Below, one piece after another: positions 1,456 to 22,353 of a stretch of DNA of 64,000 nt. Source of the stretch: Sagittula stellata E-37 (GTDB taxonomy: Bacteria; Pseudomonadota; Alphaproteobacteria; Rhodobacterales; Rhodobacteraceae). Both the position numbers and the translations under genes were made by a program. Positions within the stretch are counted from its first letter, which is position 1. Each line of letters begins with the position of its first letter. The stretch lies in NCBI RefSeq assembly GCF_039724765.1, contig NZ_CP155732.1, positions 1 to 64,000 on the forward strand, given 5' to 3'. Under the pieces are notes generated by a model. That model did not search any database and was not told the DNA's origin. It saw nothing but the letters and a program-made list of their open reading frames with translations.

Positions 1456-3272
1456 TGGCAAGCGACGACGACAACGAAAAGACGGTTTTCGGACAGGCGA
1501 TCCCGCAGCAGCCGCGGCCGCCGCAGGGCGGTGGGCAAAGGCCCGCGCCTCCGTCGCAGAACGTGAACCCGAGCGATCCGGAACGCACCGTCTTCGGCAC
1601 GCCGATCAGCCCGCAGAACCAGCCGCCCCGCGTTGCGCCGCAAGGCCAGCGCCCGCCGTCGTCCTTCCCGCAGTCGCCCATCCAGCAGCCGCCGCACCAG
1701 ACCTGGGTCGGCGGCGGCGCCGGTGGAGAGGACACCTGGCTGGGGGGCAAGGTGCAGGCCACACCGCCCCCGCCGCAGCAGCAGTACCACCAGCCCGCAC
1801 CGCCCCCGCCGCCGCAACCGCAGCCGCCGCGGCCCACGCCGATCCCGCAGGCGCCTCAGGCCGCACCGCGCCCGGCGCCGCAGCAACAACCGGCCTACCA
1901 GCCGCAGCCGCGCCCCATGGGCAACCCCGGCAGCAACCACTATTCCGGCCGGATCTACGATACCGACACCGGCCGTCCGCAAAGCCCTGAACTGTTCCCG
2001 GAGCTGCGGCGCCGCGAGACGGTCAACCGCTCCGTCCGGCAGAAGATCGCGCTTGAGGATGCGCTGCGCGCTACCGGCCTTGGGGCGGGTGGGCCGAACA
2101 ACCCGCTGGTCGCCGCTGCCGCGAACCTGTTGATCCTTCTGGGCCGCCTGCGCACCGGGATGGTGGACATGCAGTCCGCGCCCCTGCTGGAACACGTCGC
2201 CCACGAGATCGAGACCTTCGAGTCCAACGCGCTGGAGGCCGGTGTGCCCGCAGAGGACGTGACCGACGCGAAATATGCGCTTGCCGCAACGGCGGACGAC
2301 ATCGTGCAGAACCTGCCGGGCGCGGACCGCGGCATGTGGCTTGAGTATTCCATGGGCGCGCGTTTCTTCGGAGAGCGGAACGCCGGCGTGGGCTTCTTCC
2401 AGCGCATGGACCGGGCCATGAAGGCGCCGGGGCAGAAGTTCCACCTGCTGGACCTGTTCCTGGTCTGCCTGTCGCTGGGTTTCGAAGGCCAGTACCGGGC
2501 GATGCCCAACGGGCCGAACGAACTGGCCCGCATCCGCAAGGCGATCTACGAAACGCTGCGCAAGGTGGTGAAACGCCCGGACGACGACATCTCGGTCCGC
2601 TGGGCGCCGGTGATCGTCAATGGCAAGCGGCGCCGGGGCGGTATCCCGGTTTGGGTGGCCGCCGCCGTGGGCGGTGCCATGGTCGTGGCGCTGTTCGCGA
2701 CGCTCGCCTACCTTCTGTCGCAGCAGGCGGGCCGCACCCAGAACGGCATCGCGATGATGCACTTCAACCTGCCGGACGTGACCATCGAACGTTCTGCTCC
2801 GGTGGAACGCACACCGCCGCCGCCGCCGGTCGTGGTCGACCGTCTCGACGACATCCGCACCGCTCTGGAAGGGCAGGAAGTCGAGGTCGACGTCAAGAAC
2901 GAGTGGATCCTGATCCGGCTTGGTTCGGCGCTGCGCTTTGCCTCGGGCCGTGCCGAGCTTGAGAACGACCTGAGCGCGCTGGCCACGGCCATCGGTGTAG
3001 TGCTGAACGAACAGCCGGGTCCGATCCGGATCGTCGGACATTCCGACAGCGTGCCGCTCTCGGGGCGCGGGCGGTTCAAGACCAACGAGGAACTCAGCCA
3101 GGCAAGAGCGCAGACGGTGACGGACCTCGTGACCGCCAACCTGGACGACAAGGAACGCGTCAGCGTCGAGGGCAAGGGCCCGGTCGATCCCATTGCCGAC
3201 AACGCCACCGCCGAAGGTCGTGCCCGCAACCGACGCGTGGAAATCATGATCCGCCGCGAAGTGGAGGAGTGA
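1455..3272 (+). CDS. tssL: T6SS membrane protein TssL, DotU-OmpA fusion
   Basis: TssL is an inner-membrane anchor of the T6SS. I place the start at ATG 1455 (605 residues), because it overlaps the tssK stop; an upstream in-frame ATG at 1431 lies inside tssK. Layout: a disordered Pro/Gln-rich N-terminus (1 to about 165) with two acidic-[KR]TVFG motifs (Thr10, Thr45); a DotU domain (about 185-370); one membrane segment (about 395-421); a periplasmic OmpA-like domain (about 490-600) containing GHSDSVP. In Agrobacterium the TssL N-terminus is phosphorylated on a Thr by PpkA and then bound by Fha (established work); Thr10 and Thr45 are the obvious counterparts here (inference). The OmpA domain probably binds peptidoglycan and could compensate for a missing TssJ. 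Confidence 0.93.
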   Translation: MASDDDNEKTVFGQAIPQQPRPPQGGGQRPAPPSQNVNPSDPERTVFGTPISPQNQPPRVAPQGQRPPSSFPQSPIQQPPHQTWVGGGAGGEDTWLGGKVQATPPPPQQQYHQPAPPPPPQPQPPRPTPIPQAPQAAPRPAPQQQPAYQPQPRPMGNPGSNHYSGRIYDTDTGRPQSPELFPELRRRETVNRSVRQKIALEDALRATGLGAGGPNNPLVAAAANLLILLGRLRTGMVDMQSAPLLEHVAHEIETFESNALEAGVPAEDVTDAKYALAATADDIVQNLPGADRGMWLEYSMGARFFGERNAGVGFFQRMDRAMKAPGQKFHLLDLFLVCLSLGFEGQYRAMPNGPNELARIRKAIYETLRKVVKRPDDDISVRWAPVIVNGKRRRGGIPVWVAAAVGGAMVVALFATLAYLLSQQAGRTQNGIAMMHFNLPDVTIERSAPVERTPPPPPVVVDRLDDIRTALEGQEVEVDVKNEWILIRLGSALRFASGRAELENDLSALATAIGVVLNEQPGPIRIVGHSDSVPLSGRGRFKTNEELSQARAQTVTDLVTANLDDKERVSVEGKGPVDPIADNATAEGRARNRRVEIMIRREVEE

Positions 3273-3276
3273 AGCC

Positions 3277-6200
3277 ATGGAATACATGTTCTTCCGGTTC
3301 TTCCACGTCATCTGGAAAATCCTGACCAGCCGGGCGTTCCTGCGATTCTGGATCATCGTCGGCGTGCTCTGCATCTTCCTCGCGATCTTCTTCGGCCTGC
3401 CGATGACCGGGTCGGAGTTCTTCTCGAAAATCTGGGTTCGGGTCGCAGTGATCGTCCTGATCCTGTCGCCGATCCTGGGCTGGTATCTGTTCAAGTTCAT
3501 CCGCAGGCGCCGCAAGGCCAAGGCGCTTGAGGACAGCCTGGTCGAGGCACCGGTCGGCGATGGCGAGGTCCTGAACGAACGGTTCACCGAGGCGCTGGAC
3601 AAGCTCAAGAAAACCGGCGGCAAGAACTATCTCTACGAACTGCCGTGGTACGTCATCATCGGCCCGCCGGGCGCGGGCAAGACGACGGCATTGCGTTATT
3701 CGGGAATCGAGTTCCCCGGTCAGGACGTACTGACCGAAGGCGCGCAGGGGTTCGGCGGGACGAAAAACGTCGACTGGTGGTTCGCGGAGCAGGCGGTGTT
3801 GATCGACACCGCCGGACGCTACACCATGCAGGAAAGCGACGCGAATGCCGACAAGGCGTCATGGACCGCGTTTTTGGAACTGCTGAAGAAGGGCCGCCCG
3901 GACCAGCCCATCAACGGCGTGATCCTCGCTTTCTCGGTCGAGGACATGCTGAAGGGCACGCCGGAGTCGCTGACCCAGCACGCCGCCGTGGTGCGCGAAC
4001 GCCTGGGCGAGATCCACCAGGCGCTGCGGATCGACTTTCCGGTCTACGTGCTGTTCACCAAGGCCGATCTGATCTCGGGCTTCCGGGAGTACTTCAGTTC
4101 GTTCAGCCAGACGCGGCGCAAGATGGCCTGGGGCACGACCTTCCAGACCAAGGACCGTCGGGAGGCCACACACGCGCAGGTCGGCGAGGAATTCGACGCG
4201 CTGCTGTCGCGGTTGTCGGACGAGGTCGTCGACCGGATGGTCGAGGAACCCGACGACACCTCCCGCATTCAGATCTTCGGCTTGCCGGGCCAGATGGCGA
4301 TGCTGCGCGAGAACGTGGTGGAGTTCCTGCGCAAGGTGTTCGAGCCGACCCGATACGACAGCAACGCGATCCTGCGCGGCTTCTACTTCACCTCGGGCAC
4401 GCAGGAAGGCACGCCCATCGACCAGGTGCTGGGTGCGATGTCGCGTGACGGCGAAGGCGAGGGGTTCCAGCCTGCCTTCATGTCCGGCAAGGGCAAGAGC
4501 TACTTCCTGCACGACGTGCTGGCGAAGGTCATCTTCGAAGAACGCGACTGGGTGAACTTCGACCGCCGCGCCGTACGGCGCGTGGCGATCCTGAGGACGC
4601 TGGCGTTCAGCGTGATTGGGCTGGCGACGACAGCGGCCATGGCGGCCTTTGGATACAGCTTCTGGCAAAACGCGACACTGGTCCGGGATGCAGAGGCTCA
4701 TGCGGCGGTCTACCTCGATTCCGCACGCAACGAGCTGGACAACCCGCTGATCCAGGACCCAGATCCGACGTCGGTCATCGACCACCTCGATGCGCTTCGG
4801 AACATGCCGGCGGGCTACGGCAACCCGCACAACCCGACGTTCTGGGAAGGCTTCGGCCTGAACCGGTCGCGCGAAATCTCGAACTCCGCGAAAAAGGCCT
4901 ATTCCGACGGGCTGGAGCGGATGCTGCGCCCGCGCATGATGCTGCACCTCGAAAACGAGATCCCGCAGCTAATCATCGACGGCGACACCGAAGGCACCTA
5001 CCGCGCGCTGAAGGTCTACATGCAGCTTGGCCGCGACCTGGAGGCCAAGGGCGACGGCGACGAGGCGATCCGCAATTACTTCGACACCGAGTGGCAGATC
5101 ATGATGCCCGGTGCCACCCGCTTCGACGAGCGGGCGAAGCTGATGCAGCATCTCGACGCCATGCTTGAGCTGGACACCGACCAGGAAGTGATGGTGAAGC
5201 CCGACGACAACATCAAAAGCCGGGCGCGCGAGAGCATCGTGAACCTGCCGCTGGCCGATCAGGCCTATGCGGCGATCAAGGAGGCGGCGAGCCTTTCGGG
5301 TGTGCCAGACTTCAACCTTGTGAACCGCGTGTCGGGCAATGTGAACGAAGTGTTCCGGACCACCGACGGCTCTCCTCTCGATCAGCTTTCCGTGCCGGGG
5401 CTTTACACCTTCGAAGGCTACTGGGGCTTTTTCATCGACGAGATGGTGTCGGCCAAGGAGCGGCTGGCCGAAGAACAGTGGGTCCTGGGAGAGACCGGCG
5501 ACCGGGTGAACTTCAACTCCCAGCTTGCCAACCTGGAAAACGAGCTGTTCTCGAAGTACCGGCGGGAGTTCACGCTGGCCTGGAACGAGATGTTCGAGAA
5601 GCTGACCATCGCCAAGATGAGCGCGGACAGCCCGAATTACACGCTGCTCAGCTATGCCGCATCGCCGACCAACTCGCCCATCGCCGAACTGGCGGAGGGT
5701 GTGACCGAGGAAACCAACCTGATGCGTCTTTACGACGAGATCGGCGGGATCTCGGAAACCGATGCGGCGCGCCTGATCGCCTCGGGCGGCAGTTCGGATC
5801 TGGGCGGCGCACTGGGGAATGCGGCCTACGACCGGATCTATTCGCGGTCGGGCGTGTTCACGCGGGTGATCCTCGAAAGCCTTGGCAACCGGACCAAGAA
5901 CCAGCTTCGCGCCAATTCCGGCGGGCTGGCCGAAGACGTGGACCGCCGCCGCGTTCAGCGGATCACCGACGACTTCAAGGACTGGCACACGCTCATCAAG
6001 GGCGACCGTCCGAACCGGCCCATCGATTTCATGCTGAAGGCCTATGCCAGCGTGCAGGAAAACCGGTCCAACGCCGCTTTCGCTCCGACGCCAGCCGACG
6101 ACCAGATGCTGGGGCAGGCGCTGACCGCGCTGACCCGCACCAACGCCGGGGCGCCGGATGTGGTCGCACGGATGAACAGCGCGGTCGCGACTGAGTTCCG

Positions 6201-6921
6201 CACCGCCGCCGAAAACGCCACGCTGGCCGAGCTGAGCCGCGCGCTCAACGATGAGGTGGCGCAGTTCTGCAAGACGGAGATCGCGCCGTTCTACCCGTTC
6301 TCCGGCGGGTCGTCGCGGCACCTGTCGCCGTCGATCTTCGGCCAGTTCTTCGGGCCGGGCGGCAAGATGGACCAGTTCTACTCGCAGCACCTGGCGCCCT
6401 ACGTGATCCGTACCTCGGACGGCCTTCGCGCGGACCCCGGCACCGCTGTGGGTCAGCGTCTGTCCGGCAGCGCACTGGCGCAGTTCGACCGGGCGCAGAA
6501 GATCCAGCGCGCCTTCTTCGCGTCCGGCTCTCCGACACCCGAGGTCAACATGTCGATCAAGCATGTGACCTCTTCCCCGGGCGTCGGCCTCGCCAATCTG
6601 AACATCCACGGCAAGACAATCCCGACACAGCCGGATTCGACGCCCGCCGGCTTTTCGTGGCCGGGAGAGACGGCCGGTGTGTCGATCGAGCTGATCCCGA
6701 CGCGGATCGGCAACCAGGCCTCGTTCGAGTTCAGCCAGGGGCGGTGGGACATCGCCAAGTGGCTGGCGGACGGCGCACCGAAGGTGCAGGGCAACGTGGT
6801 CACCGTGCGCTACACGATCCGCGGCCAGTCGATCACCTACCGGATCGAGTTCGACAGCTCGACGGTGCCGTTCCTGATGCGCGAGCTGCGCGACTTCAGC
6901 TGCCCGACGTCGCTGGAGTGA
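3277..6921 (+). CDS. tssM: T6SS membrane protein TssM (IcmF)
   Basis: TssM spans the inner membrane and periplasm and forms the trans-envelope channel with TssL. The 1214-residue length is typical. Two membrane segments near residues 20-45 and 50-72 precede a cytoplasmic NTPase-like domain with an intact Walker A (GPPGAGKTT from residue 129) and a VLIDTAGRY Walker B-like element. A third membrane segment lies near residues 437-460, followed by a large periplasmic region ending in the C-terminal IcmF domain. An intact Walker A is not universal in TssM, so ATP binding is likely retained. The start at 3277 lies four bases after the tssL stop; the stop overlaps the tagF GTG start. Confidence 0.95.
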   Translation: MEYMFFRFFHVIWKILTSRAFLRFWIIVGVLCIFLAIFFGLPMTGSEFFSKIWVRVAVIVLILSPILGWYLFKFIRRRRKAKALEDSLVEAPVGDGEVLNERFTEALDKLKKTGGKNYLYELPWYVIIGPPGAGKTTALRYSGIEFPGQDVLTEGAQGFGGTKNVDWWFAEQAVLIDTAGRYTMQESDANADKASWTAFLELLKKGRPDQPINGVILAFSVEDMLKGTPESLTQHAAVVRERLGEIHQALRIDFPVYVLFTKADLISGFREYFSSFSQTRRKMAWGTTFQTKDRREATHAQVGEEFDALLSRLSDEVVDRMVEEPDDTSRIQIFGLPGQMAMLRENVVEFLRKVFEPTRYDSNAILRGFYFTSGTQEGTPIDQVLGAMSRDGEGEGFQPAFMSGKGKSYFLHDVLAKVIFEERDWVNFDRRAVRRVAILRTLAFSVIGLATTAAMAAFGYSFWQNATLVRDAEAHAAVYLDSARNELDNPLIQDPDPTSVIDHLDALRNMPAGYGNPHNPTFWEGFGLNRSREISNSAKKAYSDGLERMLRPRMMLHLENEIPQLIIDGDTEGTYRALKVYMQLGRDLEAKGDGDEAIRNYFDTEWQIMMPGATRFDERAKLMQHLDAMLELDTDQEVMVKPDDNIKSRARESIVNLPLADQAYAAIKEAASLSGVPDFNLVNRVSGNVNEVFRTTDGSPLDQLSVPGLYTFEGYWGFFIDEMVSAKERLAEEQWVLGETGDRVNFNSQLANLENELFSKYRREFTLAWNEMFEKLTIAKMSADSPNYTLLSYAASPTNSPIAELAEGVTEETNLMRLYDEIGGISETDAARLIASGGSSDLGGALGNAAYDRIYSRSGVFTRVILESLGNRTKNQLRANSGGLAEDVDRRRVQRITDDFKDWHTLIKGDRPNRPIDFMLKAYASVQENRSNAAFAPTPADDQMLGQALTALTRTNAGAPDVVARMNSAVATEFRTAAENATLAELSRALNDEVAQFCKTEIAPFYPFSGGSSRHLSPSIFGQFFGPGGKMDQFYSQHLAPYVIRTSDGLRADPGTAVGQRLSGSALAQFDRAQKIQRAFFASGSPTPEVNMSIKHVTSSPGVGLANLNIHGKTIPTQPDSTPAGFSWPGETAGVSIELIPTRIGNQASFEFSQGRWDIAKWLADGAPKVQGNVVTVRYTIRGQSITYRIEFDSSTVPFLMRELRDFSCPTSLE

Positions 6922-7613
6922 GCGCAGTGACGGGATCCGCACGCATCGGTGTCATGGGCAAACACCCCGGCTTTGGCGACTTCGTGCAGGCGGGCCTGTC
7001 GAAGGACGTGCACGACGACCTGATGCGCTGGCTGGACAAGACGCTGAGCCGTGTGCGCGAAGAGGCCGGGTCCGATTGGAAGTTCTGGTGGACACAGGCG
7101 CAGCCGCTGCGGTTCTGGATCGGGCGCAGCGTTCTCGGCGTGCCGGTGGCGGGCGTGATGCAGCCGTCGCGCGACAAGGTCGGGCGGGACTACCCGCTGA
7201 TCCTTGCCGCCGAGAACGTGTTTCTGCCGGTGCCCGGCGACGGCGGCGCGACCGACCAATCCCCATGGGAAGCGCTGGAGGCCCATGTGACGGCGATGGC
7301 GCCGGGCAAGGGCGCGGCGAGCCTGCTCGACGGTCTGACGCTGGACCTGCCCGCCGAAGGCGACGCCGAGCGCGCGCTTGGCCCGACCATCTGGGCACAT
7401 CACCCTGAAGGCGATCTTGACGCGCTTCTCAGGGCCGCGGCGGGCGCCGACCTGTCCCGCGCCGCCCTGCAGCGGTCCTACTGGTGGTCCGCAGGCGACG
7501 CAACGCGCCTGCCGGTCTGGCTGGGCTGCCATGGTCTGCCCGACGCCGGCGCGTTGGGCTGGTTGCTGGCGGGACAGCCTAAACTGGAACAGACGTCCGA
7601 ATCCGCGGATTGA
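6918..7613 (+). CDS. tagF: T6SS-associated protein TagF
   Basis: This protein is a TagF/ImpM family member (231 residues). TagF represses T6SS assembly post-translationally; in Agrobacterium and Pseudomonas it acts on the Fha branch. The family signature GKHPGFGDFVQAGLS is near the N-terminus. I chose GTG 6918 because it forms a GTGA overlap with the tssM stop; a GTG at 6927 and an ATG at 6954 are possible alternatives, and the reading frame stays open further upstream inside tssM. It lies between tssM and the phosphatase/kinase pair, so a full threonine-phosphorylation control module follows the membrane complex genes. Confidence 0.88.
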   Translation: MSAVTGSARIGVMGKHPGFGDFVQAGLSKDVHDDLMRWLDKTLSRVREEAGSDWKFWWTQAQPLRFWIGRSVLGVPVAGVMQPSRDKVGRDYPLILAAENVFLPVPGDGGATDQSPWEALEAHVTAMAPGKGAASLLDGLTLDLPAEGDAERALGPTIWAHHPEGDLDALLRAAAGADLSRAALQRSYWWSAGDATRLPVWLGCHGLPDAGALGWLLAGQPKLEQTSESAD

Positions 7614-7704
7614 TGAGTTACGATGAAACCCGGCCTGCGCCCCAATAGCGACAACGCTTAGCACGCACGGCGGCAGCGCATGATGAGGCGCTCAAAGGAT
7701 GCCC

Positions 7705-8514
7705 ATGGATTACAACGAATTCTTCACCTTCGAGACCGGGCAGGCCACGGACGTCGGACGCAAGCGGACCGTGAACGAGGACAACTTCCTGTCCCGGCCC
7801 GATTGCGGACTTTGGGTGGTGTCCGACGGGATGGGCGGCCACGCGGCCGGGGACTACGCCTCTTACACCATCGTGCAGGAACTGAACTCCATCGGCATGT
7901 CGGCCTCACCCGACGATCTTCAGGCCCGATTCATGGAGCGCATCCACCGCGCCAACACCGCGATCTTCGAACACGCGCAAGAGTTGCAACGAGGAACCAT
8001 CGGTGCCACCTTGGTTGCGCTGCTTGTCCACGGCGAGGATTATGCCTGCATCTGGTCGGGGGACAGCCGCATCTACCTTCTGCGGGACGGCAAACTGGTG
8101 CAGCAGACCCGCGACCACACCGAACTGATGATGCTGCTCGATTCCGGAACGATCACCGAGGAAGAGGCACAGAACTGGCCTCGCAAGAATGTCATCACAC
8201 GTGCCATCGGGGTGACAGAGACCCCGCAATGTGATGTGGTCAGTGGCAAGCTCGCGCTGGACGATACGTTCATCCTGTGTTCTGACGGGCTGACGGAGCA
8301 TCTGAGCGACGAGGACATCGCGGAACTGGCTGCAAAGCATCGCCCCAAGGACGCCTGTGAGGCGATGATCGAACTGACGCTGGAACGGGGCGCCAAGGAC
8401 AACGTGACCGTGATCTCGATGCGTTGCCTGCCACCGCCGGAGCTGGAAGAAGAAAACGACCTGATGGACGACGTGCTGGAACTGGACACATCTGCGGGTG
8501 AGGCCGAAGCATGA
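7705..8514 (+). CDS. pppA: PP2C-type Ser/Thr phosphatase PppA
   Basis: This PPM/PP2C-family phosphatase (269 residues) should reverse PpkA phosphorylation of T6SS proteins in the cytoplasm. Metal-binding motifs are intact: GRKRTVNEDNF near the N-terminus, VSDGMGGHAAGD, WSGDSRIYLL, and C-terminal AKDNVTVI. An ATG at 7699 directly abuts the AAAGG ribosome site, so I prefer ATG 7705, which is spaced six bases from AGG. An acidic tail ends the protein. It is separated from tagF by about 90 bases and its stop overlaps the ppkA start (ATGA), giving translational coupling of phosphatase and kinase. Confidence 0.93.
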   Translation: MDYNEFFTFETGQATDVGRKRTVNEDNFLSRPDCGLWVVSDGMGGHAAGDYASYTIVQELNSIGMSASPDDLQARFMERIHRANTAIFEHAQELQRGTIGATLVALLVHGEDYACIWSGDSRIYLLRDGKLVQQTRDHTELMMLLDSGTITEEEAQNWPRKNVITRAIGVTETPQCDVVSGKLALDDTFILCSDGLTEHLSDEDIAELAAKHRPKDACEAMIELTLERGAKDNVTVISMRCLPPPELEEENDLMDDVLELDTSAGEAEA

Positions 8515-10841
8515 ACGCTTCCGGCACCAATCCACCCGAGGATGACGACGACGACGAGCGCACGGTCTTCCGTCCACCTACGCCGCCGGGCCAGACGCGC
8601 CCGCCGGAGGACGACGACGACGAGGACGAGCGCACGCAATTCGCCGGACCGCCCGGCGGCGGCGGCGCCGCCGCGCCATGGCCGCCTCAGCCCACGGCCT
8701 ACCCGACGCAGACCCCGACGGAGTGGCCGGAGCAGCCTTATCCGAACGACCCGAACGCCGGTCAGCGGACCGATCCCGGGCACGAGCAGGGGCCGTACAC
8801 GCACAGCGGCTACCCCACATCGATGCCGCCGCAGAACACGGCCCATCCGACACAAGGGCCGTCGCCCTACGCCACCCAGGGCACCGGAACGGGGCAGGGG
8901 GGATACACGCAGGATCCGTCCTACGCGCCGCAGACCACGTCCACCGGCTATCCACCTGCACCGACCGGGGCGAACCAGGCCGCGGCAGAAGCGGCGCGCG
9001 CAACCGGCAAGCTGCCCATCGGCACGCTTATCAACAACAACTACCGGATCGAGGAGGTCCTGAAGTCCGGTGGCATGGGCGAAGTCTATCGCGGGATCGA
9101 GATCCACACCGGCGACCCGGTGGCGATCAAGGCGATCCTCCAGGAAAAGGCCGACGACGCCGAGGCGGGACTGCTCTTCAAGCGGGAGGCGCGGACGCTG
9201 CGCCGCCTGACCGACGAAACCATCGTCCGGTATTACAACTACGTCCCCGACCCCGAGCTTCAGCGCTATTTCCTCGTGATGGAGTTCATCGAAGGTGAAC
9301 CTCTCAAGGACTACATCGCCAACACCGGCCCGCTGCCGGTGGAACAGGCCAAGGCACTGCTGGCGCGTCTGGCGGGCGGTCTGGCGACAGCCCACGATGC
9401 GGAGGTCATCCACCGCGATCTGTCGCCGGACAACGTGATGCTTGAAAGCGGCCGGGTGGAAACCGCACGGCTGATCGACTTTGGCATCGCCCAGTCCTCG
9501 GTGGTGAAAGAGGCCACCATGGCCGGGCGGTTCGCGGGCAAGTTCAAGTACGTCGCGCCCGAGCAGCTTGGCCATTACGGCGGGCACATCTCGCCCGCCA
9601 CCGACATCTACGGGCTGGCGTTGCTGATCGCCGCGGCCGCCATCGGCAGGCCGCTGGACATGGGATCGTCGATCGTCGAGGCGGTGCAATCGCGCCAGTC
9701 CATCCCGGACCTGTCGCACGCCCCCGAGGAACTGCGCCCGATCCTGTCCTACATGCTGGAACCCGACCCGAAGGACCGGCCGTCGTCCATGCTCGAAGTG
9801 CGTGAGCTGGTCAACGATCCGACGCGGATTCCGGAACGCTATCTTGGCGGCTGGGTGCCTGCCGCGCCACCGCCGCTGCACACGACCCCGCCGGGCAACA
9901 CGTCGCACGGGATGACACAGGCAGGGACCATGACCTCTGGCCTGCAGATCCCCGGGGCCACGCAGAACATCACGCTGAACACCTCGCTCGGCCCGACCCC
10001 GCTCCCGGAGCCGGAGGTCGAGAAGCGCGGCGGGGGTGGACTGATCCTGATCCTGCTGGCCGTCTTCCTGGCCATTGTCGGAGGCGGCGGCTACTTCGCG
10101 TGGCAACAGGGCCTGATCGGAGGCGAGTCCCAATTGCTTGGCGCCGGAGGCGACCAACCCACTCCGCCCGAGCCGCAACCGCAACAGGCAGGCATCCCCG
10201 ATCCGCTGAGCGATACGCGCGAAGGGTTCCTGGCGGCGTTCGAGACCGGGCCGTGTACCTACGTGACGCGTGTGAATCAGGGGCCGAACGCCGGCACCAT
10301 CGAAGGCTTCTCGGCCACGCGCGAACAGTTCTCGGGCCTGCCCACGGCCTACGAGGAACGGTTCGGCGCCCGGCCCGAGGTCCAGCCGCGCGAGATCACC
10401 CGCCAGCAGTGCGAGGTGCTGAACTTCGCCAAGGCGCTGCAGGGCAGGGGCCGCAACGGGGTAGAGATGTTCCTTTCCGCCGACGAGGTGGCCAGCCAGA
10501 ACCCGGTGACGGCGCAGTTGACCGTTCCTCAGGGACAAGCCGTATGGCTGATCCTCATCAGTCCGACGGGCGGCATCTTCAACCTGTCGGACCGGCTTTC
10601 GCAACCCGTCGGCAACCAACGCAACCTGAGCTTCGCCCTGTCGCTGCGGTCCGGGCAAGAACCCGCCCCCCAGCTTCTGCTGGCGGTCGAAAGCGACGAA
10701 CCGCTGGCCCAGGCGGCGGTTGCGAAACGTGGCGATCAGGCGGCGAACATCCTGCCGAAAATCCTGGAGGAGATCGCCTCCCGAAACGGCGCGGCGAGCG
10801 CGGCAGTGTCCTACCTGAAGCTGAACCCGGCCGAAGAGTGA
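8511..10841 (+). CDS. ppkA: Membrane Ser/Thr kinase PpkA with unusual periplasmic domain
   Basis: This 776-residue kinase probably activates the T6SS by phosphorylating TssL/TagH-class proteins. The N-terminal tail holds two acidic-ERT[VQ]F motifs (Thr18, Thr42) and a Pro/Gln/Thr-rich linker. The kinase domain spans about 177-435 and has the Gly-loop KSGGMGEVYRG, VAIK lysine, HRDLSPDN catalytic loop (Ser instead of Lys, common in bacterial T6SS kinases) and DFG. One membrane segment lies near 507-530. The C-terminal region (about 563-776) is not the VWA domain of Pseudomonas PpkA. It matches the C-terminus of the TonB-like protein at 10985-13000: both share a Cys early on, RQC/QQC, EVAS-x-N, and a [LI][LI]-[AI]-x-E-P tract. 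The kinase is therefore likely controlled from the periplasm. Confidence 0.92.
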   Translation: MNASGTNPPEDDDDDERTVFRPPTPPGQTRPPEDDDDEDERTQFAGPPGGGGAAAPWPPQPTAYPTQTPTEWPEQPYPNDPNAGQRTDPGHEQGPYTHSGYPTSMPPQNTAHPTQGPSPYATQGTGTGQGGYTQDPSYAPQTTSTGYPPAPTGANQAAAEAARATGKLPIGTLINNNYRIEEVLKSGGMGEVYRGIEIHTGDPVAIKAILQEKADDAEAGLLFKREARTLRRLTDETIVRYYNYVPDPELQRYFLVMEFIEGEPLKDYIANTGPLPVEQAKALLARLAGGLATAHDAEVIHRDLSPDNVMLESGRVETARLIDFGIAQSSVVKEATMAGRFAGKFKYVAPEQLGHYGGHISPATDIYGLALLIAAAAIGRPLDMGSSIVEAVQSRQSIPDLSHAPEELRPILSYMLEPDPKDRPSSMLEVRELVNDPTRIPERYLGGWVPAAPPPLHTTPPGNTSHGMTQAGTMTSGLQIPGATQNITLNTSLGPTPLPEPEVEKRGGGGLILILLAVFLAIVGGGGYFAWQQGLIGGESQLLGAGGDQPTPPEPQPQQAGIPDPLSDTREGFLAAFETGPCTYVTRVNQGPNAGTIEGFSATREQFSGLPTAYEERFGARPEVQPREITRQQCEVLNFAKALQGRGRNGVEMFLSADEVASQNPVTAQLTVPQGQAVWLILISPTGGIFNLSDRLSQPVGNQRNLSFALSLRSGQEPAPQLLLAVESDEPLAQAAVAKRGDQAANILPKILEEIASRNGAASAAVSYLKLNPAEE

Positions 10842-10846
10842 CCGTT

Positions 10847-10871
10847 GGTGCGCCCCGTCGCGGGGCGCACC
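10847..10871 (+). terminator. Terminator after ppkA
   Basis: A perfect 11-bp stem (GGTGCGCCCCG at 10847-10857, CGGGGCGCACC at 10861-10871) with a TCG loop begins five bases after the ppkA stop. It lies between convergent genes and could stop transcription from both sides. No clear U-tract follows on the + strand. Confidence 0.7.
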
Positions 10872-10984
10872 TGCCTTCCCCAGAATCGTAACCTGCGGAT
10901 TTGCCTGAAACCCCTCGGGCAAACCTCACCGGCTTGACCCGCCAAGGCGGTCTGGCTTCGATACCTGTGAGGAAGCGGCCCTGC

Positions 10985-13000
10985 CTAACGCACGTCGAAG
11001 GCGACGATGGCCAGCGCCGCCTGTCGGCTCAGCTCTGCACTGAGATCGGCGAAGAACGCGTCCGCGCTTTGCCCGGAGCGGTCTTTCAGCGTCGACAGCG
11101 GCTCGGTCGAGGCGATGGCGATCAGCAATTGCTTGGTGTCGCGCAACGGACCGACCCGCGTGACCGGCACGTCGAAGCGAACGAATTCTCCCGACGTCGT
11201 GGTGAAGCGGTCCAGATCCTGAACCACGCCATTGTTGTCCACCAGGAAAAGCCCCAGGTTCCGGTCGCCGACACCGCGCATCACGCCCGAAACACGGTTG
11301 CCCGACGCCACCTCCGCATTGTCCAGTCGCATGCCGATGCGGGTCGCCGGATAGTCGCGGTTCTTGGCGATGAAGGTCAGGGCCGCGCATTGCCGTTCGT
11401 CCAGCAGGGTGCGGGTCTGGCGGATCTCCTCGTCCTCCGGACGCACCAGCACTTCGGATGCGAACCGACCCATGGCGCCATCCTCGGCGGCCAGAAGTGC
11501 CAGACCAATCCCGTCCTCGCCGTCGCGGCGGGGCAGGGCGATGACACAGTTGTCCTCGGTCTTCGCGCGGATGCGCTGGATCAGGTCGCCGATGGCAAGA
11601 TCGCGTTCCGAAGGCGGGGCGCGCATCCGGCGGGTCACACGCGGTGGCGCGGGATCGACCGGAGTCGCCGCGATGGCATCGGTGCCGGTGGCGTCCGGGG
11701 AGGTCGTCGTCGGGTCGAGCGTGTCGGGCGCCGGGGCAGCTGTCACCGGATCGAGCGTATCCACGCTGTCCCCGGGCGGTGCCGCGGTCACGGGCTCAAG
11801 CGGTTGCGCCGTCGGGCTCACCGTTTCCGGCCCGGTGGAGCTGTCCCCCGGGGTCGGCGGTGTCACGGGAACAAGCGCCGCAAAGTCCTCTGCCTCCACC
11901 TGCCCGGTGGGCGTCGCGGCGATCACCTCGTCATCGTTCTCCACGATGGGGGCCACGTCGCCGGAGGTGACAGGGGCCGCATCCTCGCTGGACGTGGGAT
12001 CGAGCACCGGCGCGCCGGTCACGACCTGAGCCGCGCCATCGTCGACGATCAGCGAATCCGCCTCTGTCGGACTGACCAAAGCGTCATCTTCCGGCACCAA
12101 GGCCGTCACGTCCTCCACCGGAGGGGCGACAAGCGGCGCTTCCTCGACCGGTTGCAGGTCTGCGACGTCGGGCGCTTCCGGTTCGACGGTCTCTTCTTCC
12201 GGGCCCACCGACTCAACGGTATCCAATGGCGGCTCCTCGACCGGTTCCGCCTCGACCGTGTCCAGTGCGCCCGTGTCCAATGCCGCCGGCTCCTCCACCG
12301 GAGCCGCATCCAGCGTGTCTGCCGCCTGCTCTTCTGCCAGAGCGTCGCCCGTTGTGGCATCAAGCGCGTCAGGTGTGACCCCGTCGAGGCCCTCCGCCTC
12401 TGCCGCGTCGAGCGTGTCGAGCGGTTCCGGGGACACGTCCTGCGGTTCCTCCGCTTCCAGCGCGTCAGGCTCCGCCTGGGCCGTTTCGTCAGGCTCGATG
12501 GTCTCCGGCTGCTCCGCTTCTGCGGTGTCGGCTGGTGTTTCCGGGGTCAGTTCCTCGGCATCGGCGGCGTCGAGCGTATCCGGATCCTCGGGCGTGACCT
12601 CTTCCAGCGGCGGCTCGTTCTCCGCCGTGTCGTCCGGCAGGTCAGCGTCTAGGGTGTCCAGCTCCCCTTCGTCGACCTGCTCCGCATCGGGTATCGCGGC
12701 ATCGTCGAAGGTATCGTCCGGCGCCAGTTCGCCCTCCGGATCGAGGGTTTCCATCTCTTCGGCGGCATCCAGCCCGGTGGCTTCGCCAAGGCGTTCGACC
12801 AGACCGGCCAGCGTATCGGACTCGAGCTGTTCCAGCGTGATCTGGAACTCTGGCGCCGACTGCGGCAAAGGGCGCTCCACGAACCATTTCGACACGCCGG
12901 CGGACATCAACGCGATGATACCGGCGTGCACAGCGACCGAACCGATGGTGGACAGAAGCCAGCCGCCGGGCGCGCCGCGTCCATAGGGCAGGTAGCTCAT
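10985..13000 (-). CDS. TonB-like protein with acidic repeats and PpkA-type C-terminal domain
   Basis: This 671-residue protein has one N-terminal membrane segment (about 14-38) containing Ser-x3-His (SVAVH), the motif by which TonB contacts ExbB/ExbD. Residues about 75-450 form a very acidic, Pro/Thr/Ala-rich linker with recurring DTLDA, DTLDP and EPVEEP units. The C-terminal domain (about 458-671) is not the classical TonB fold. It aligns end to end with the C-terminal domain of PpkA: DNC versus GPC, ERQCAALTF versus RQQCEVLNF, NAEVASGNRV versus ADEVASQNPV, and LLIAIASTEPLS versus LLLAVESDEPLA. It is last in exbB-exbD-exbD-this gene, with an ATGA overlap to exbD2. A role in energised signalling to the T6SS kinase is inference. 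Confidence 0.75.
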   Translation of the reverse strand: MSYLPYGRGAPGGWLLSTIGSVAVHAGIIALMSAGVSKWFVERPLPQSAPEFQITLEQLESDTLAGLVERLGEATGLDAAEEMETLDPEGELAPDDTFDDAAIPDAEQVDEGELDTLDADLPDDTAENEPPLEEVTPEDPDTLDAADAEELTPETPADTAEAEQPETIEPDETAQAEPDALEAEEPQDVSPEPLDTLDAAEAEGLDGVTPDALDATTGDALAEEQAADTLDAAPVEEPAALDTGALDTVEAEPVEEPPLDTVESVGPEEETVEPEAPDVADLQPVEEAPLVAPPVEDVTALVPEDDALVSPTEADSLIVDDGAAQVVTGAPVLDPTSSEDAAPVTSGDVAPIVENDDEVIAATPTGQVEAEDFAALVPVTPPTPGDSSTGPETVSPTAQPLEPVTAAPPGDSVDTLDPVTAAPAPDTLDPTTTSPDATGTDAIAATPVDPAPPRVTRRMRAPPSERDLAIGDLIQRIRAKTEDNCVIALPRRDGEDGIGLALLAAEDGAMGRFASEVLVRPEDEEIRQTRTLLDERQCAALTFIAKNRDYPATRIGMRLDNAEVASGNRVSGVMRGVGDRNLGLFLVDNNGVVQDLDRFTTTSGEFVRFDVPVTRVGPLRDTKQLLIAIASTEPLSTLKDRSGQSADAFFADLSAELSRQAALAIVAFDVR

Positions 13001-13404
13001 GAGCCACCTCCCTCGCCAGAGCGGTGCACGGTCACAAGCCGGATTTCGAGATGCGCGAACTCTGGCTTGCCCAGGATGTCGATCAGCGACTGCGCGCTTT
13101 CGTTGCGGTCGATCAGCAGATGCAGGACCGTCTGGTCGGCGACTCCGTTGGCGAGTTGCACGTCATCCACCAACTCCCCGTCGAGCATCATCACGCCCTC
13201 GGGCTCCAGCACGAGGATCGGTTTCGGCAGGTGATCCACGGGCAGATCGGCGGTTTCGGAGAGCTCTACGGCGAAGGTCGGCGCATTCGTCAGCCGTCCG
13301 GTCACAAGGAAGAAGAAGATCAGCAGAAGAACGATGTTGACGATGGCCAGCGAAATGTCCGGCTGCTGCTTCTTGTGGGTCCTCGGGATGTGACGAATGG
13401 CCAT
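12997..13404 (-). CDS. ExbD-family protein lacking the membrane Asp (ExbD2)
   Basis: This 135-residue ExbD/TolR-like protein has one N-terminal membrane helix and a periplasmic domain. In ExbD the helix carries an essential Asp (LIDV in E. coli) for proton use. Here the aligned stretch reads ISLAIVNIVLLLIFF, with an AAC (Asn) codon at that position. An Asp further N-terminal (PDIS) is at the membrane edge and does not substitute by position. The gene follows a second exbD with a one-base gap and overlaps the TonB-like gene. A heterodimer with the Asp-containing ExbD1 is the simplest reading (inference). Confidence 0.8.
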   Translation of the reverse strand: MAIRHIPRTHKKQQPDISLAIVNIVLLLIFFFLVTGRLTNAPTFAVELSETADLPVDHLPKPILVLEPEGVMMLDGELVDDVQLANGVADQTVLHLLIDRNESAQSLIDILGKPEFAHLEIRLVTVHRSGEGGGS

Positions 13405-13405
13405 G

Positions 13406-13855
<450 letters not shown>

Positions 13856-13868
13856 CTTCGATGCCCCG

Positions 13869-14513
13869 TCACAGTTTCTTGGTCGGGTCGAGCCGGCCGT
13901 GGATCGCCGCCGAGATGACGGTCTCGATCATGTTGCGTTCCCGCTCGATCCGGGATTCGAAGTAGTTTGCAACGAAATACGCCACCAGCGCGATGGCAAG
14001 GCCCGCCGCAGTGGTGGTCAGGGCGGTGTAGATGCCTGCGGCCAAGATGGTCGGGTCCACCGCGCCCTCGGCCACGGCGAGGGCAGAGAAGGCGTCGATC
14101 ATGCCGATCACGGTGCCGAGCAGACCCAGCATCGGCGCGGCCTGGACCACCATTTCCAGCGTGCGCATACGGTCCGTCATGGTCGCCAGCTCGATGATCG
14201 CGGTCTGGCGGCCCAGCTCTTCGGCATAGGTCGAGTCGCCCGGCTTCGCCTGCACACCAGAGAACACGGCCTGCAGGATGCGGGCGAGCACGGACTTGCG
14301 CTTTTGCGCTTGCTGCAGGGCCAGGTCGGCGCGCCCGGACAGCCAGTTGTCGAGGATCTCTTCGGCGCGTTTCCGGCGCCCGACGCCGAGCACCATGAAC
14401 TGCACCCACTTGTAGATTGCCACGGCAATCGCGAGGAGCGACAGAATCCCCAGGGCGCCAAAGACGATGAGGGACGCGATGTTAAAGGACTCGGGGAGAA
14501 AGGACTCCATCAA
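13869..14513 (-). CDS. ExbB/TolQ/MotA-family proton channel protein
   Basis: This 214-residue membrane protein has the ExbB arrangement: an N-terminal helix (about 12-38), a cytoplasmic loop, and two C-terminal helices with the MotA/TolQ/ExbB signature (AAPMLGLLGTVIGMIDAF and TALTTTAAGLAIAL). A strong AAGGAG ribosome site precedes ATG 14513. It heads the four-gene exbB-exbD1-exbD2-TonB-like operon. No TonB-dependent receptor, Tol or Mot genes are nearby, so its partner is most likely the TonB-like protein of the same operon and, through domain homology, the T6SS kinase. Confidence 0.92.
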   Translation of the reverse strand: MMESFLPESFNIASLIVFGALGILSLLAIAVAIYKWVQFMVLGVGRRKRAEEILDNWLSGRADLALQQAQKRKSVLARILQAVFSGVQAKPGDSTYAEELGRQTAIIELATMTDRMRTLEMVVQAAPMLGLLGTVIGMIDAFSALAVAEGAVDPTILAAGIYTALTTTAAGLAIALVAYFVANYFESRIERERNMIETVISAAIHGRLDPTKKL

Positions 14514-14572: not shown

Positions 14573-15016
14573 TTAGATACCGAATTGGATCGCGGTGCGC
14601 GAGCTTGCGCTGAGCGCCGACATGCATACGTCTGCATCATTGCCCGTTTCGGCGTCAATGCATGCCGAGCTGTCGTTGATGACGATACGCGAAATGTCCG
14701 AGCACGCGGCGCCGGGCAGTTCGAACTGGAGCACGCGGGTCTTGCCGTCGATCAGCGCGCCGAACTTCAGCACAAGCAGGCGGGTCACAACCCCTTCGCC
14801 GTCGAAAATCGCCACTTCGTACTCTGTCCTGTCGAGCGCGGTGCCGGAGTTGTTCTCGGCCACGTACGTCAGTCGGCAGTTGCCGTTACCGGTTTCCGCG
14901 GCGGCGTTCAGTTCCAGCTCAAACAGGTTGGACGTTGGCGTTTCGTCCTGGGCGGCTGCGGCCATTGGAACCGATGCCAAACCCGCAATGCACAAAGCAA
15001 AAATACGGTTCTTCAT
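14573..15016 (-). CDS. Secreted cysteine-containing hypothetical protein
   Basis: This 147-residue protein begins with a clear signal peptide (MKNRIFALCIAGLASVPMAAAA, cleavage after Ala-Ala-Ala near residue 22). The mature part has four Cys (NGNCRL, GAACSD, SSACID, DVCMS), consistent with two disulphides in the periplasm. I do not recognise the family. It lies 59 bases upstream of exbB on the same strand and could be cotranscribed with it, so it may be a periplasmic partner of the ExbBD/TonB-like system, but nothing in its sequence proves that. Confidence 0.75.
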   Translation of the reverse strand: MKNRIFALCIAGLASVPMAAAAQDETPTSNLFELELNAAAETGNGNCRLTYVAENNSGTALDRTEYEVAIFDGEGVVTRLLVLKFGALIDGKTRVLQFELPGAACSDISRIVINDSSACIDAETGNDADVCMSALSASSRTAIQFGI

Positions 15017-19797: not shown

Positions 19798-22353
19798 ATG
19801 CCGATCGACGTTGACCCCTCCTTCAAAAAGACCGGCGACAAGGCACGGGAACGTCAGCTGTGGAGGCAGACCGGAGAGAATGCGCGCAGACGCCATCGCA
19901 GGCGAAAGATTCGCCGCATCGCGATCATGGGGGGCGGTGGCTTTGGCATTCTCCTGATCGCTTTCATCGGATGGATGGTCGCGCGCTCCCCCAGCGACGG
20001 AGGCGGCGGTGTCGAAGGATCCGATGTGGCGGAGTTGAGCGGTCTCGACCCCGAAGACGACGATTTCACGATGGTGCAGGCAGACGAAGCGCAGACGGAT
20101 TTCGCCTCCAGCAGCTTCACCCCGGTGCTGCCTGCGGACATCCAGGTCGATCCGATGATCCTGCGGGTTGCGCAGGAAGGTGAGGGCAACGTGCAGTACA
20201 TCGCCGGACCTCAGGACTTCCTGCCCGCGCGGGTCGGGCCGCCCGGATCTCAGCGCTTTGCCTACCTGCGTGAACCGCTTGTCGCCGCGGAGCAGACGCT
20301 GGAACTGGTGCTGCCCTCTTCGCGCGACGACTTTGCCCTTTTCCAGGCGCAGCGCAGCCAGGCCAGCCCTCCGGGTGCCCTGCCGCAGCAACCTCAGAAA
20401 CCTTCCGCCCCGGTCGAGGCCGGGGACCTCGTCACCGTCGAGGAAGACAGCAGCTGGGGTGACCTGATCACCACCGACGACGATGCCCTCCAAAGCGAGG
20501 GCCAATCCGAAAGCGCCGCCGTCTACGTGGAGACCCGGATCGAGAACACCACCTCTACCGTGCTTGCCCTGCGCGAAAGTGAGCGGCATGCGCTCTACGA
20601 GGACGTGGTGACGGCTTTGCAGACGGAACGCCCGCTGGTGCAGGTGCTGACGTCCAGCGGGTTCAGTGCAAGCGACGCCGCCGCAATCGCACGGGCCGCC
20701 GAGACGCGCCTGTTCGTTCCCGAAAAGCTGGCGGGCGGCAGCATCGTGGCGGTGCGCTATCGCCAGAACGATTTCGGGCGCGAGCTGATCCAGATGTCGG
20801 TATACGGCCCGGAGGGCTACATCGGCACGCTCGTCCGGCTTGGCGAAGGGCGCTACGATAGCGGCGCGGACCCGTGGTTCTCGGAAAACCTGACGGACCG
20901 GACCGGCGAACTGGTGGCGCAGGCGCAGGAGGCGAAAGAGGTCCGTATCATCGACGCGATCTATTCCACCGCGCTCTCCAACGGCCTGTCACAGACGCTG
21001 GTCGGCCAGCTTATCCTGATCCTGTCCAAGGACTTCGACCTCGACCGCTTCGCCAGCGACGGGGACTACTTCTCGGTGCTGTACGCCAACACGCCCGGCC
21101 CGGAGGGAGACGGCTTGGGCCGCGTGCTTTACGTGGGGATCGAGGGGCCGTCCGGCACGCTGACCTGCTACGTGACAGACGGTGAAAACGAGGGCGAATT
21201 CGCCTGCTTCGATTTCAACGCCACCACGACGGGCGGAGGCGGAGGCGCCATCGGAGGCGGCATGGTCGTGCCGGTGAAGGGGGTGAAGACGTCGGGCTTC
21301 GGCCCGCGTCACCACCCGATCCTGAAGCAGGTGCGCAATCACGACGGTGTCGACTGGGCAGCACCCACCGGCACGCCCATCGTGTCCGCCATGAACGGCA
21401 CGGTGGAATACGCCGGACCGGGCGGCGGCTATGGCAACGTGATCTACATCGACCACGGCAACGGCCAGCAGACGCGCTATGCCCACATGTCGAAGTACGG
21501 CGCGTTCAAGAAGGGCGACCGGGTGAAGGCGGGCGACGTCATCGGCTACGTCGGCACCACCGGGCGATCCACCGGACCGCACCTGCATTTCGAACTCAGG
21601 GTGAACGGCACGCCGGTCGACCCGCTCAGCTATCGCGCCTCTGTCACCGTGGCGGCTGTCTCGGACGGCGGACAGCCGGGGTCGGCGGCGGTCGAGCAAC
21701 TGGTCAACAAGATCATCAAGGTCGAAAGCGCGGGCAACGCACGCGCGAAGAATCCGCTGTCGACCGCAACGGGCCTCGGCCAGTTCATCGAAAGCACGTG
21801 GCTGCGGATGATGCGCGACTACCGGCCGGACCTTGCAAACAGCATGAGCCGCGCGGCCTTGCTGGAACTGCGCTTCGACCCGTCGCTGAGCCGCGAGATG
21901 GTGCGCAACCTTGCGCGGGAAGGGGAGGCCTACCTCAGATCGCGTGGCCATACGATCACGCCGGGGAACCTGTACCTCTGCCATTTCCTTGGTGCGGGCG
22001 GGGCGGCAAAGGCCCTGAGCGCATCGCGCGAGGCGTCCGTGCTCGACGTGATGGGCGCGGGCGTCGTGGGGGCAAACCCGTTCCTGCGCGGCAAGACCAT
22101 CGGCGAACTGATCGCTTGGTCGGATCGCAAGATGCTGGTCAGGGGACAATCCACCGCAATCTCCAGCGCGCCCGCCATACCCGCACCCCGTGCCGTTCCG
22201 GAAGAGATCAAGGCGTTCAGGGAAACCGTCGATACCTTGCTGAAAGAGGCAAAGGCCAAAGCCGAAGGCATCGCCGCCCGGGCCGCGGAGGAAGACGCTG
22301 CCGATGAGGAAACGACAGGCGAGACGGTTGAAGACGCCCCCGAAAATGACTAA
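19798..22353 (+). CDS. Bifunctional peptidoglycan hydrolase: M23 peptidase plus lytic transglycosylase
   Basis: This 851-residue protein has an Arg-rich N-terminus and one membrane segment (about 41-62), so it is anchored with its bulk in the periplasm. Residues about 498-610 form an M23/LytM endopeptidase with all zinc-ligand motifs (GPRHHP, HDGVDW, HLHFEL). Residues about 630-760 form an SLT-type transglycosylase with catalytic Glu near 643 (KVESAGN), ATGLGQFIESTW and LCHFLGAGGA. Each enzyme type is common; the fusion on one membrane-anchored chain is not. Between the two halves of the T6SS locus, it could open the cell wall for the secretion channel (inference). An acidic tail ends the protein. 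Confidence 0.85.
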   Translation: MPIDVDPSFKKTGDKARERQLWRQTGENARRRHRRRKIRRIAIMGGGGFGILLIAFIGWMVARSPSDGGGGVEGSDVAELSGLDPEDDDFTMVQADEAQTDFASSSFTPVLPADIQVDPMILRVAQEGEGNVQYIAGPQDFLPARVGPPGSQRFAYLREPLVAAEQTLELVLPSSRDDFALFQAQRSQASPPGALPQQPQKPSAPVEAGDLVTVEEDSSWGDLITTDDDALQSEGQSESAAVYVETRIENTTSTVLALRESERHALYEDVVTALQTERPLVQVLTSSGFSASDAAAIARAAETRLFVPEKLAGGSIVAVRYRQNDFGRELIQMSVYGPEGYIGTLVRLGEGRYDSGADPWFSENLTDRTGELVAQAQEAKEVRIIDAIYSTALSNGLSQTLVGQLILILSKDFDLDRFASDGDYFSVLYANTPGPEGDGLGRVLYVGIEGPSGTLTCYVTDGENEGEFACFDFNATTTGGGGGAIGGGMVVPVKGVKTSGFGPRHHPILKQVRNHDGVDWAAPTGTPIVSAMNGTVEYAGPGGGYGNVIYIDHGNGQQTRYAHMSKYGAFKKGDRVKAGDVIGYVGTTGRSTGPHLHFELRVNGTPVDPLSYRASVTVAAVSDGGQPGSAAVEQLVNKIIKVESAGNARAKNPLSTATGLGQFIESTWLRMMRDYRPDLANSMSRAALLELRFDPSLSREMVRNLAREGEAYLRSRGHTITPGNLYLCHFLGAGGAAKALSASREASVLDVMGAGVVGANPFLRGKTIGELIAWSDRKMLVRGQSTAISSAPAIPAPRAVPEEIKAFRETVDTLLKEAKAKAEGIAARAAEEDAADEETTGETVEDAPEND

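Follow-up and report, generated by a model that had tools for sequence, protein, structure and literature searches.

In this work we describe, at the start of a circular contig of 105.8 kb in Sagittula stellata E-37 (NZ_CP155732.1, whose first 64,000 nucleotides are referred to here as the window), a set of genes in which an ExbB/ExbD-type motor with a TonB-like arm stands together with PpkA, the membrane kinase of a type VI secretion system (T6SS), with the phosphatase PppA, and with a giant autotransporter-like surface protein. The TonB-like protein and PpkA have homologous C-terminal domains, and there is good support for reading the genes as one unit; which genes occur and in what order, the homology of the two domains, the residues kept and the co-occurrence could all be read directly from the genomes. 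We believe, with a probability of about one half, that the set encodes a proton-powered envelope module by which a surface adhesin and the PpkA/PppA switch are coupled, usually so as to control a T6SS.

Read across the junction of the circular contig, the genes run autotransporter-tssK-tssL-tssM-tagF-pppA-ppkA on the plus strand and meet, convergently, an operon on the minus strand that reads tonB-like-exbD2-exbD1-exbB-hyp147 in the same direction. From its promoter side the operon begins with hyp147 (14573-15016), which has a signal-peptide-like start, as judged by eye, four invariant cysteines and no Pfam match, and continues with an ExbB/TolQ-type proton channel subunit (13869-14513; PF01618, 93 bits), ExbD1 with its membrane Asp24 (13406-13855; PF02472, 54 bits), the ExbD-like ExbD2, where Asn23 replaces the membrane Asp (12997-13404; PF02472, 22 bits, below the cut-off of 25.4), and the TonB-like protein of 671 residues (10985-13000). 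The last of these is made up of a Ser21-x3-His25 membrane helix, a long acidic Pro-rich linker and, at residues 455-671 (10988-11638), the domain it shares with PpkA. The original prediction had described an operon of exbB, two exbD genes and a tonB-like gene ending at 14513; the four genes stand, and the end was placed too short, as hyp147 belongs to the operon too. On the plus strand, pppA encodes a PP2C-type phosphatase (7699-8514; PF00481, 61 bits) and ppkA (8511-10841) a Ser/Thr kinase (residues 178-430; PF00069, 140 bits) with a single membrane helix, followed by the shared domain at residues 560-776 (10188-10838). Both copies of the domain are supported by profile-profile comparison and by models.

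Homology between the two C-terminal domains is apparent at several levels of comparison. By BLASTP the full-length TonB-like protein and PpkA are 25% identical over 161 columns (E 5e-5), which as a single comparison is only suggestive. Profile-profile alignment of small family sets covered 179 columns (probability 98.6, E 6.6e-16), and with larger sets hhalign aligned 86 TonB-like with 54 PpkA domains over 195 columns at a probability of 99.7 and an E value of 3.2e-26; 12 control pairs, in which both sets were compared with hyp147, ExbD1, ExbD2, TagF, PppA and ExbB, all stayed below 2%. Models of the two domains (predicted local distance difference test scores, pLDDT, of 94.5 and 94.1) have an identical order of helices and strands, with a small alpha/beta part followed by an immunoglobulin (Ig)-like sandwich, for which generic matches only were obtained. 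In a tree of 142 domains (86 TonB-like, 54 PpkA and 2 others) the two kinds split with a support of 0.987 and not one domain misplaced, which points to one old duplication followed by long joint inheritance. Two cysteine columns are kept in 142/142 and 141/142 domains, the sole exception being a gap in the truncated sequence of L118 (L numbers denote locus stretches and G numbers genomes; the window strain is G000 and its window contig C4). Such conservation fits a periplasmic disulfide, predicted between domain positions C19 and C72 of alignment A7, and, given that the strongest membrane helix of PpkA by hydropathy (about residues 511-529) lies between the kinase and the shared domain, suggests that the domain is periplasmic.

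In Pseudomonas, PpkA usually has a VWA domain at its C-terminus. The original prediction had held that this PpkA lacks one and instead shares its C-terminal domain with the TonB-like protein, and had expected that the two would be predicted to fold alike and that a profile of the domain would retrieve both kinases and TonB-like proteins. All of this was borne out: Pfam gives no VWA match in PpkA, only kinase-type and related phosphotransferase domains, the place of the VWA domain being taken by the shared domain; the element order of the models agrees; and PpkA-type and TonB-like copies were both found. The TonB-like protein itself has no Pfam or NCBIfam match. Several of its homologues (P0014, P0022, P0040 and others) are named 'serine/threonine kinase' or 'protein kinase' in databases, probably because of the domain common to PpkA; those that were aligned start with the arm helix.

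Judged by their conserved residues, the motor parts look competent. The membrane Asp of ExbD1 is present in 86/86 sequences, whereas the same site of ExbD2 is Asn in 81/83, the two others being one Ser and one gap, and is never Asp. ExbB retains Thr134 and Thr167, each in 85/85, and its relatives of solved structure, by sequence, are TolQ and ExbB. The Ser-x3-His membrane helix claimed earlier for the TonB-like protein is present (SVAVH, residues 21-25) and general among its relatives: a script located the membrane His in 66 of 80 N-termini, preceded at position -4 by Ser in 57 and by Ala in 9, and inspection by eye of the 14 that it missed found S-x3-H in 13, with L076 lacking it, so that the His is present in 79/80. 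The four cysteines of hyp147 recur in 80/80 distinct sequences.

The unit is conserved well beyond S. stellata. A scan of one genome per species with two peptide patterns gave 86 relatives; locus counts here use the best 80 of them, whose genera we take to be only Rhodobacteraceae in the wide sense. A sample of 385 genomes of the class yielded the domain in two, both of the same family, where at most eight candidates were scored per genome and distant members could escape. ExbB, ExbD1, ExbD2 and the TonB-like protein occur together in 79 of the 80 loci, and in the remaining one (L118) the contig starts inside the domain. All five operon genes were found in 76 loci, in identical order in every one of them, and PpkA lies convergent and within 400 bp in 40/80. 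TssM is encoded inside the fetched stretch at 45 of the 80 loci; a whole-genome search (threshold E 1e-30) of 36 genomes, namely those of the 35 loci without TssM in their stretch and of L062, found it in 31, in 30 of them over the family cut-off, which brings the total to 75 of 80 operon genomes. A PpkA-type copy of the domain is present in 34 of the same 36 genomes, two of which also have a flush PpkA, and both misses are metagenome-assembled genomes (MAGs). In the PpkA-type loci that were fetched, kinase and domain share one open frame in 28/30; one of the other two has the kinase in neighbouring frames, and one has no kinase within its 2.3 kb stretch.

A second sample, of one genome per genus from 248 genera of the family Rhodobacteraceae, gave the same association. 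The two samples overlap in at least six genomes (L044/G163, L056/G147, L057/G056, L072/G240, L095/G166 and L108/G081) and so are not independent; the alignments used (A5-A8) were built from module loci and favour close relatives, at most 12 first-look candidates per genome were scored for the domain (A7) and at most 8 for the barrel of the giant protein (A8), and PpkA-type and TonB-like matches were separated by score, open-frame length and place. Within these bounds TssM was found in 59 genera and the domain in 18, all of them among the 59 (p 6e-13), and the TonB-like gene in 13, each with TssM (p 2.6e-9); the co-occurrence of operon and T6SS that the original prediction expected is thus found. 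Every TonB-like genome that is more than 90% complete has a PpkA-type copy (11/11), and a TonB-like gene without a kinase-type domain was not seen in any sampled genome of that completeness. The TonB-like copy alone was found in G147 (73% complete) and G166 (71%), the same two MAGs as the misses of the whole-genome search. None of the operon genes was found in 13 T6SS stretches from domain-free genera (L156-L160, L164-L171), and the kinases in L165-L167 are without the shared domain. Two MAGs, G263 and G277 (L117), carry four domain copies each, as if there were one PpkA-type/TonB-like pair per system.

The most constant partner of the operon is the giant autotransporter-like protein, which had been overlooked because its gene crosses the contig junction. 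In S. stellata E-37 it is an open frame of 3089 residues on the plus strand, directly upstream of tssK (C4:96551-105817, with the barrel match at C4:104870-105817), and its TAA stop codon consists of base 105818 and bases 1-2 of the window. That the gene is absent from this strain was considered when the L179 protein gave no match in the window or in L040/L041, and was rejected once a profile search had found the copy at the contig end; the stretches of the window and of L040/L041 did not reach the barrel end of the gene. In stand-alone units a giant open frame precedes pppA in place of tagF (L031, L034, L177, L178, L179 and L182), with 1923 residues in L177 and 2209 in L179, the other four running off the end of the stretch; in G175 and G026 the same place is taken by open frames of 3227 and 4004 residues. 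The copies that were read have a signal-like start, a repetitive passenger and a C-terminal region of 330 residues ending in Phe, which is 34-69% identical among the six stand-alone copies and that of L161. Of its relatives, 87 in number, some have autotransporter as their database name and some match PF12951 or PF18883, while many have neither such a name nor such a match; the PATR match in the L177 protein is below the cut-off, and the protein of the window strain has no Pfam or NCBIfam match.

In the sample of 248 genera the barrel family was found in 15, of which 14 are domain-positive (p 1.7e-18) and which include 12 of the 13 genera with a TonB-like gene, and in none of the 41 T6SS genera without the domain. 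All 50 operon genomes searched, out of the 80, contain it, with a best E value of at most 3.1e-81; these 50 were hand-chosen, mainly isolates and contigs with long flanks, and the barrel was also seen at several of the other 30 loci. In 19 of the 22 genomes with TssM coordinates the barrel shares the strand of TssM and stands 3.0-3.4 kb upstream of it; in the other three it is on a different contig. Elsewhere its position varies, the gene being near tssK on the opposite strand in G081 and elsewhere on the contig in G240. S. stellata E-37 has two giant autotransporter-like genes, the one at C4:96551-105817 and one in the region of C1:2136374 (L210, L211), which have 6490 bp at the 3' side in common at 99.9% identity and differ in their N-terminal parts, as if the distal tip had been exchanged. 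In G131 (L212) the barrel, pppA and the kinase domain adjoin an opposite-strand T6SS, the matched parts being 30-39% identical to those of the window; no motor operon genes were found in that stretch. Surface protein, phosphatase, kinase, motor and arm make up the constant set, into which the T6SS base genes look inserted between surface protein and phosphatase.

For the assembly of the motor, the physical contacts, the path and direction of the signal, the ligand of the domain and the T6SS as output, we infer the following model. ExbB and the ExbD1/ExbD2 pair would form a proton-driven motor in the inner membrane, and the TonB-like protein would be its arm, engaging the motor through its Ser/Ala-x3-His helix. 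The long linker of the arm would cross the periplasm, so placing the C-terminal domain to work at or near the outer membrane. PpkA has its own, duplicated copy of this domain, predicted to face the periplasm beyond the membrane helix, and since the arm ends in a sister of that copy, the arm is the natural candidate for the input to PpkA. The two domains may pair, or may bind or compete for the same partner, probably together with hyp147 and the giant surface protein. Using the proton-motive force (PMF), the motor would load or reset the contact between arm and kinase, and what is felt would be the surface protein: contact or load on it would alter the hold of the arm, and the occupancy or clustering of PpkA would change. 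PppA would undo the phosphorylation by PpkA. In genomes with a T6SS the autotransporter gene and pppA usually flank tssK-tssL-tssM-tagF, and the output is thus probably T6SS assembly, via Fha, the candidate target of PpkA phosphorylation (36156-37814, minus strand; FHA and T6SS_FHA_C domains). In the genomes where no T6SS was found the output would be another envelope function.

The remaining T6SS genes of the window fall into two groups. Those at its start, on the plus strand with pppA and ppkA, are tssK (121-1455; TIGR03353, 359 bits), a long form of tssL with an OmpA-like end (1431-3272; TIGR03349, 182 bits; TIGR03350, 124 bits, below the cut-off of 139.8), tssM (3277-6921; TIGR03348, 894 bits) and tagF (6921-7613; TagF_N, 81 bits, and TIGR03373, 76 bits). 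The starts given for tssL, in whose open frame the match to DotU sets in near residue 216, and for tagF are provisional. On the minus strand lie tssH, tssG, tssF, tssE, tssC, tssB, an ImpA_N protein gene (tssA) and fha. Inside the cluster, at 19798-22353 on the plus strand, a gene encodes a protein in which an M23 peptidase domain is accompanied by a weak match to SLT transglycosylase, below the cut-off; beside it are two open frames without a Pfam match, at about 16328 and 18083.

Several observations weigh against the coupling of adhesin, motor and kinase that we favour. At half of the loci operon and ppkA are not flush, and the operon can be 9 to 248 kb from TssM; TssM was not found at all in 5 of the 80 operon genomes, namely the isolates Roseivivax marinus (L051/L177) and R. 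sediminis (L058/L178) and the MAGs of L088, L094 and L120, which may be incomplete. A PpkA-type domain without a TonB-like copy was seen in 4 of 15 good genomes (G004, G121, G131 and G247) and in the incomplete G028, which suggests that coupling to the PMF is not always needed. G004, G247 and G028 have a PpkA-type domain and no barrel at the threshold used, G233 has the barrel with neither domain nor TssM, and in G159 the TssM has a module-type score (1810 bits), with no domain or barrel found in an assembly that is 89% complete and in about 690 contigs. The name autotransporter reflects sequence character and database names rather than a barrel profile, and no periplasmic extension that the arm could grip is readable in the barrel. 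Finally, in G004 the domain is also found on a penicillin-insensitive murein endopeptidase (Peptidase_M74, 319 bits; L037:7342-9489), where it groups inside the PpkA clade of the tree. This fusion suggests a cell-wall ligand rather than an adhesin and makes peptidoglycan a serious candidate.

The fusion also leads to the alternative that survives best, though we consider it doubtful: the domain would bind peptidoglycan or its fragments, and the arm and PpkA would read the state of the wall and adjust the T6SS or the surface protein, the tie to the autotransporter being a matter of operon ancestry only. Besides the endopeptidase, the OmpA-like end of the window's TssL speaks for it, as does a gene adjoining hyp147 in L031 (L031:14299-16767), which encodes a caspase domain together with a weak match to a peptidoglycan-binding domain, below the cut-off, and has relatives by BLAST in L033, L034 and L177. 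However, the M74 fusion is a single one among 18 domain-positive of 248 genomes (some open frames being unannotated), the alpha/beta and Ig-like fold with its generic sandwich matches counts against it, and the barrel in 50/50 genomes is left unexplained.

That barrel, the partner kept even where TssM was not found, would be accounted for if the machine moved, presented or released the giant surface protein in the manner of the Agl and Gld systems, with PpkA and PppA switching the motor and the T6SS profiting from the contact made. On the usual account type V proteins need no PMF for their export and display, which counts against this view, and it leaves the sharing of a domain by arm and kinase unexplained. 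We regard it as unlikely, even though the complement of one ExbB and two ExbD is that of AglR-AglQ-AglS (PMC3169522). The wall-sensing and the adhesin-moving alternatives draw on one and the same gene set and part over the ligand of the domain.

The original prediction saw in the operon an accessory of the T6SS alone, linking the PMF to PpkA and to firing. Its link between arm and kinase stands, and the presence of TssM in 13/13 TonB-like genera and 75/80 genomes agrees with it, as does a Paracoccus MAG (G263, L083) in which two TssM go with two PpkA-type and two TonB-like copies. The exclusive tie to the T6SS does not hold, and the surface protein was missed. Given that TssM was not found in the two Roseivivax species and three MAGs, and that in G026 and G175 the unit lies apart from a T6SS whose own kinase (L163 and L162, respectively) is without the domain, PppA-PpkA and the operon do not appear to be a dedicated part of the T6SS, and a role confined to it is improbable. 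It is very unlikely that the genes are together only through travel on the same plasmids or islands. The window does lie on a circular contig, and a relative of its TonB-like domain at 98% identity is named as a plasmid protein in Sagittula sp. P11, but the association persists where the parts are on different contigs or far apart, and across loci where identity to the TonB-like domain of the window falls to 27-59%; genes that are unlinked and yet present together argue for function. Least credible of all is a TonB system for nutrient uptake that happens to lie beside a T6SS, as the ExbB/ExbD genes and the Ser-x3-His helix might suggest, since TonB_C has no Pfam match in the TonB-like protein of the window or in 39 members, ExbD2 has no Asp, the operon's cluster holds no TonB-dependent receptor, and the only one found in the genome is on contig C2 (C2:9846-11231) with a different ExbD (C2:12939) some 1.7 kb away, which bears out the earlier statement that no iron uptake is near the operon.

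The set bears on the question of how a T6SS outside Pseudomonas senses contact with a neighbour. It is conserved and testable in many Rhodobacteraceae, in which an adhesin-like surface protein, a proton motor, a kinase and a phosphatase stand together and the arm and kinase share a domain; this suggests an energised way of feeling a neighbour before acting. Natural variants in which TssM was not found offer the sensor for study apart from the weapon, and the ExbD pair, with a proton-carrying Asp in one member only, amounts to a test by nature of the way these motors operate. More tentatively, the set may represent a new class of energised contact receptor, in which a PMF-driven arm and a transmembrane kinase read the load on an autotransporter through sister domains. 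If so, the cell would spend PMF on testing its surface contacts and would fire the T6SS, or make another response, only where the adhesin is engaged, and the one-Asp ExbD1/ExbD2 pair would be an asymmetric motor. We know of no earlier ExbBD-type energiser wired to a protein kinase, and this would be the first.

The components are of known kinds. Their combination matches no system found in the literature searched, and there is a real chance that it is a new receptor class; by titles and the beginnings of abstracts, ExbB/ExbD together with PpkA, a T6SS and an autotransporter are not described (subscription papers and preprints lay outside the scope of that search). For Leisingera sp. JC1 a T6SS is reported, this operon going unmentioned in the available part of the genome paper (PMC5014874). 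The Pseudomonas H1-T6SS responds to a force that breaches the outer membrane, and the part of the account at hand describes no ExbBD motor (PMC11881912). TssW-PpkA-Fha of Acidovorax citrulli resembles our module in that an outer-membrane factor and PpkA set the site of T6SS assembly, and differs in that neither an ExbBD-type motor nor a shared periplasmic domain enters the description as far as it is available (PMC12607579). Similarly, TasL, the T6SS-associated adhesion lipoprotein of Vibrio, is a large surface protein through which contact with chosen targets is made; it is a putative lipoprotein rather than an autotransporter, for which the accessible text describes no energiser or kinase (PMC9040878).

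With ExbB-ExbD-TonB and TolQ-TolR-TolA the module has in common an ExbB/TolQ channel, an ExbD with its membrane Asp and an S-x3-H arm with a long linker. In contrast to these, it has two unlike ExbD proteins, one with Asn for Asp, an arm that ends in a two-cysteine domain, and a cluster without a receptor. The gliding motor AglR-AglQ-AglS of Myxococcus likewise has one ExbB-type and two ExbD-type genes; as far as the available part of the report goes, its motor cluster consists of aglRQS only, whereas here an arm, a kinase/phosphatase pair and an autotransporter are added (PMC3169522). The closest likeness on the signalling side is with PpkA-PppA-Fha and its TagQRST or RtkS inputs, where a membrane kinase with a periplasmic domain, a PP2C phosphatase, TagF and Fha lie in one cluster; in the window, too, PppA, Fha and TssA/B/C/E/F/G/H/K/L/M are encoded with PpkA. 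A known theme of this threonine phosphorylation pathway (TPP) is input to PpkA from the periplasm: its periplasmic part is acted on by TagR in Pseudomonas, to which TagQRST is reported to be restricted, and by RtkS in Serratia (PMC6082577). Unlike in those systems, the PpkA unit described here also occurs where TssM was not found, and its likely input is a proton-motor arm that carries a copy of the kinase's own domain.

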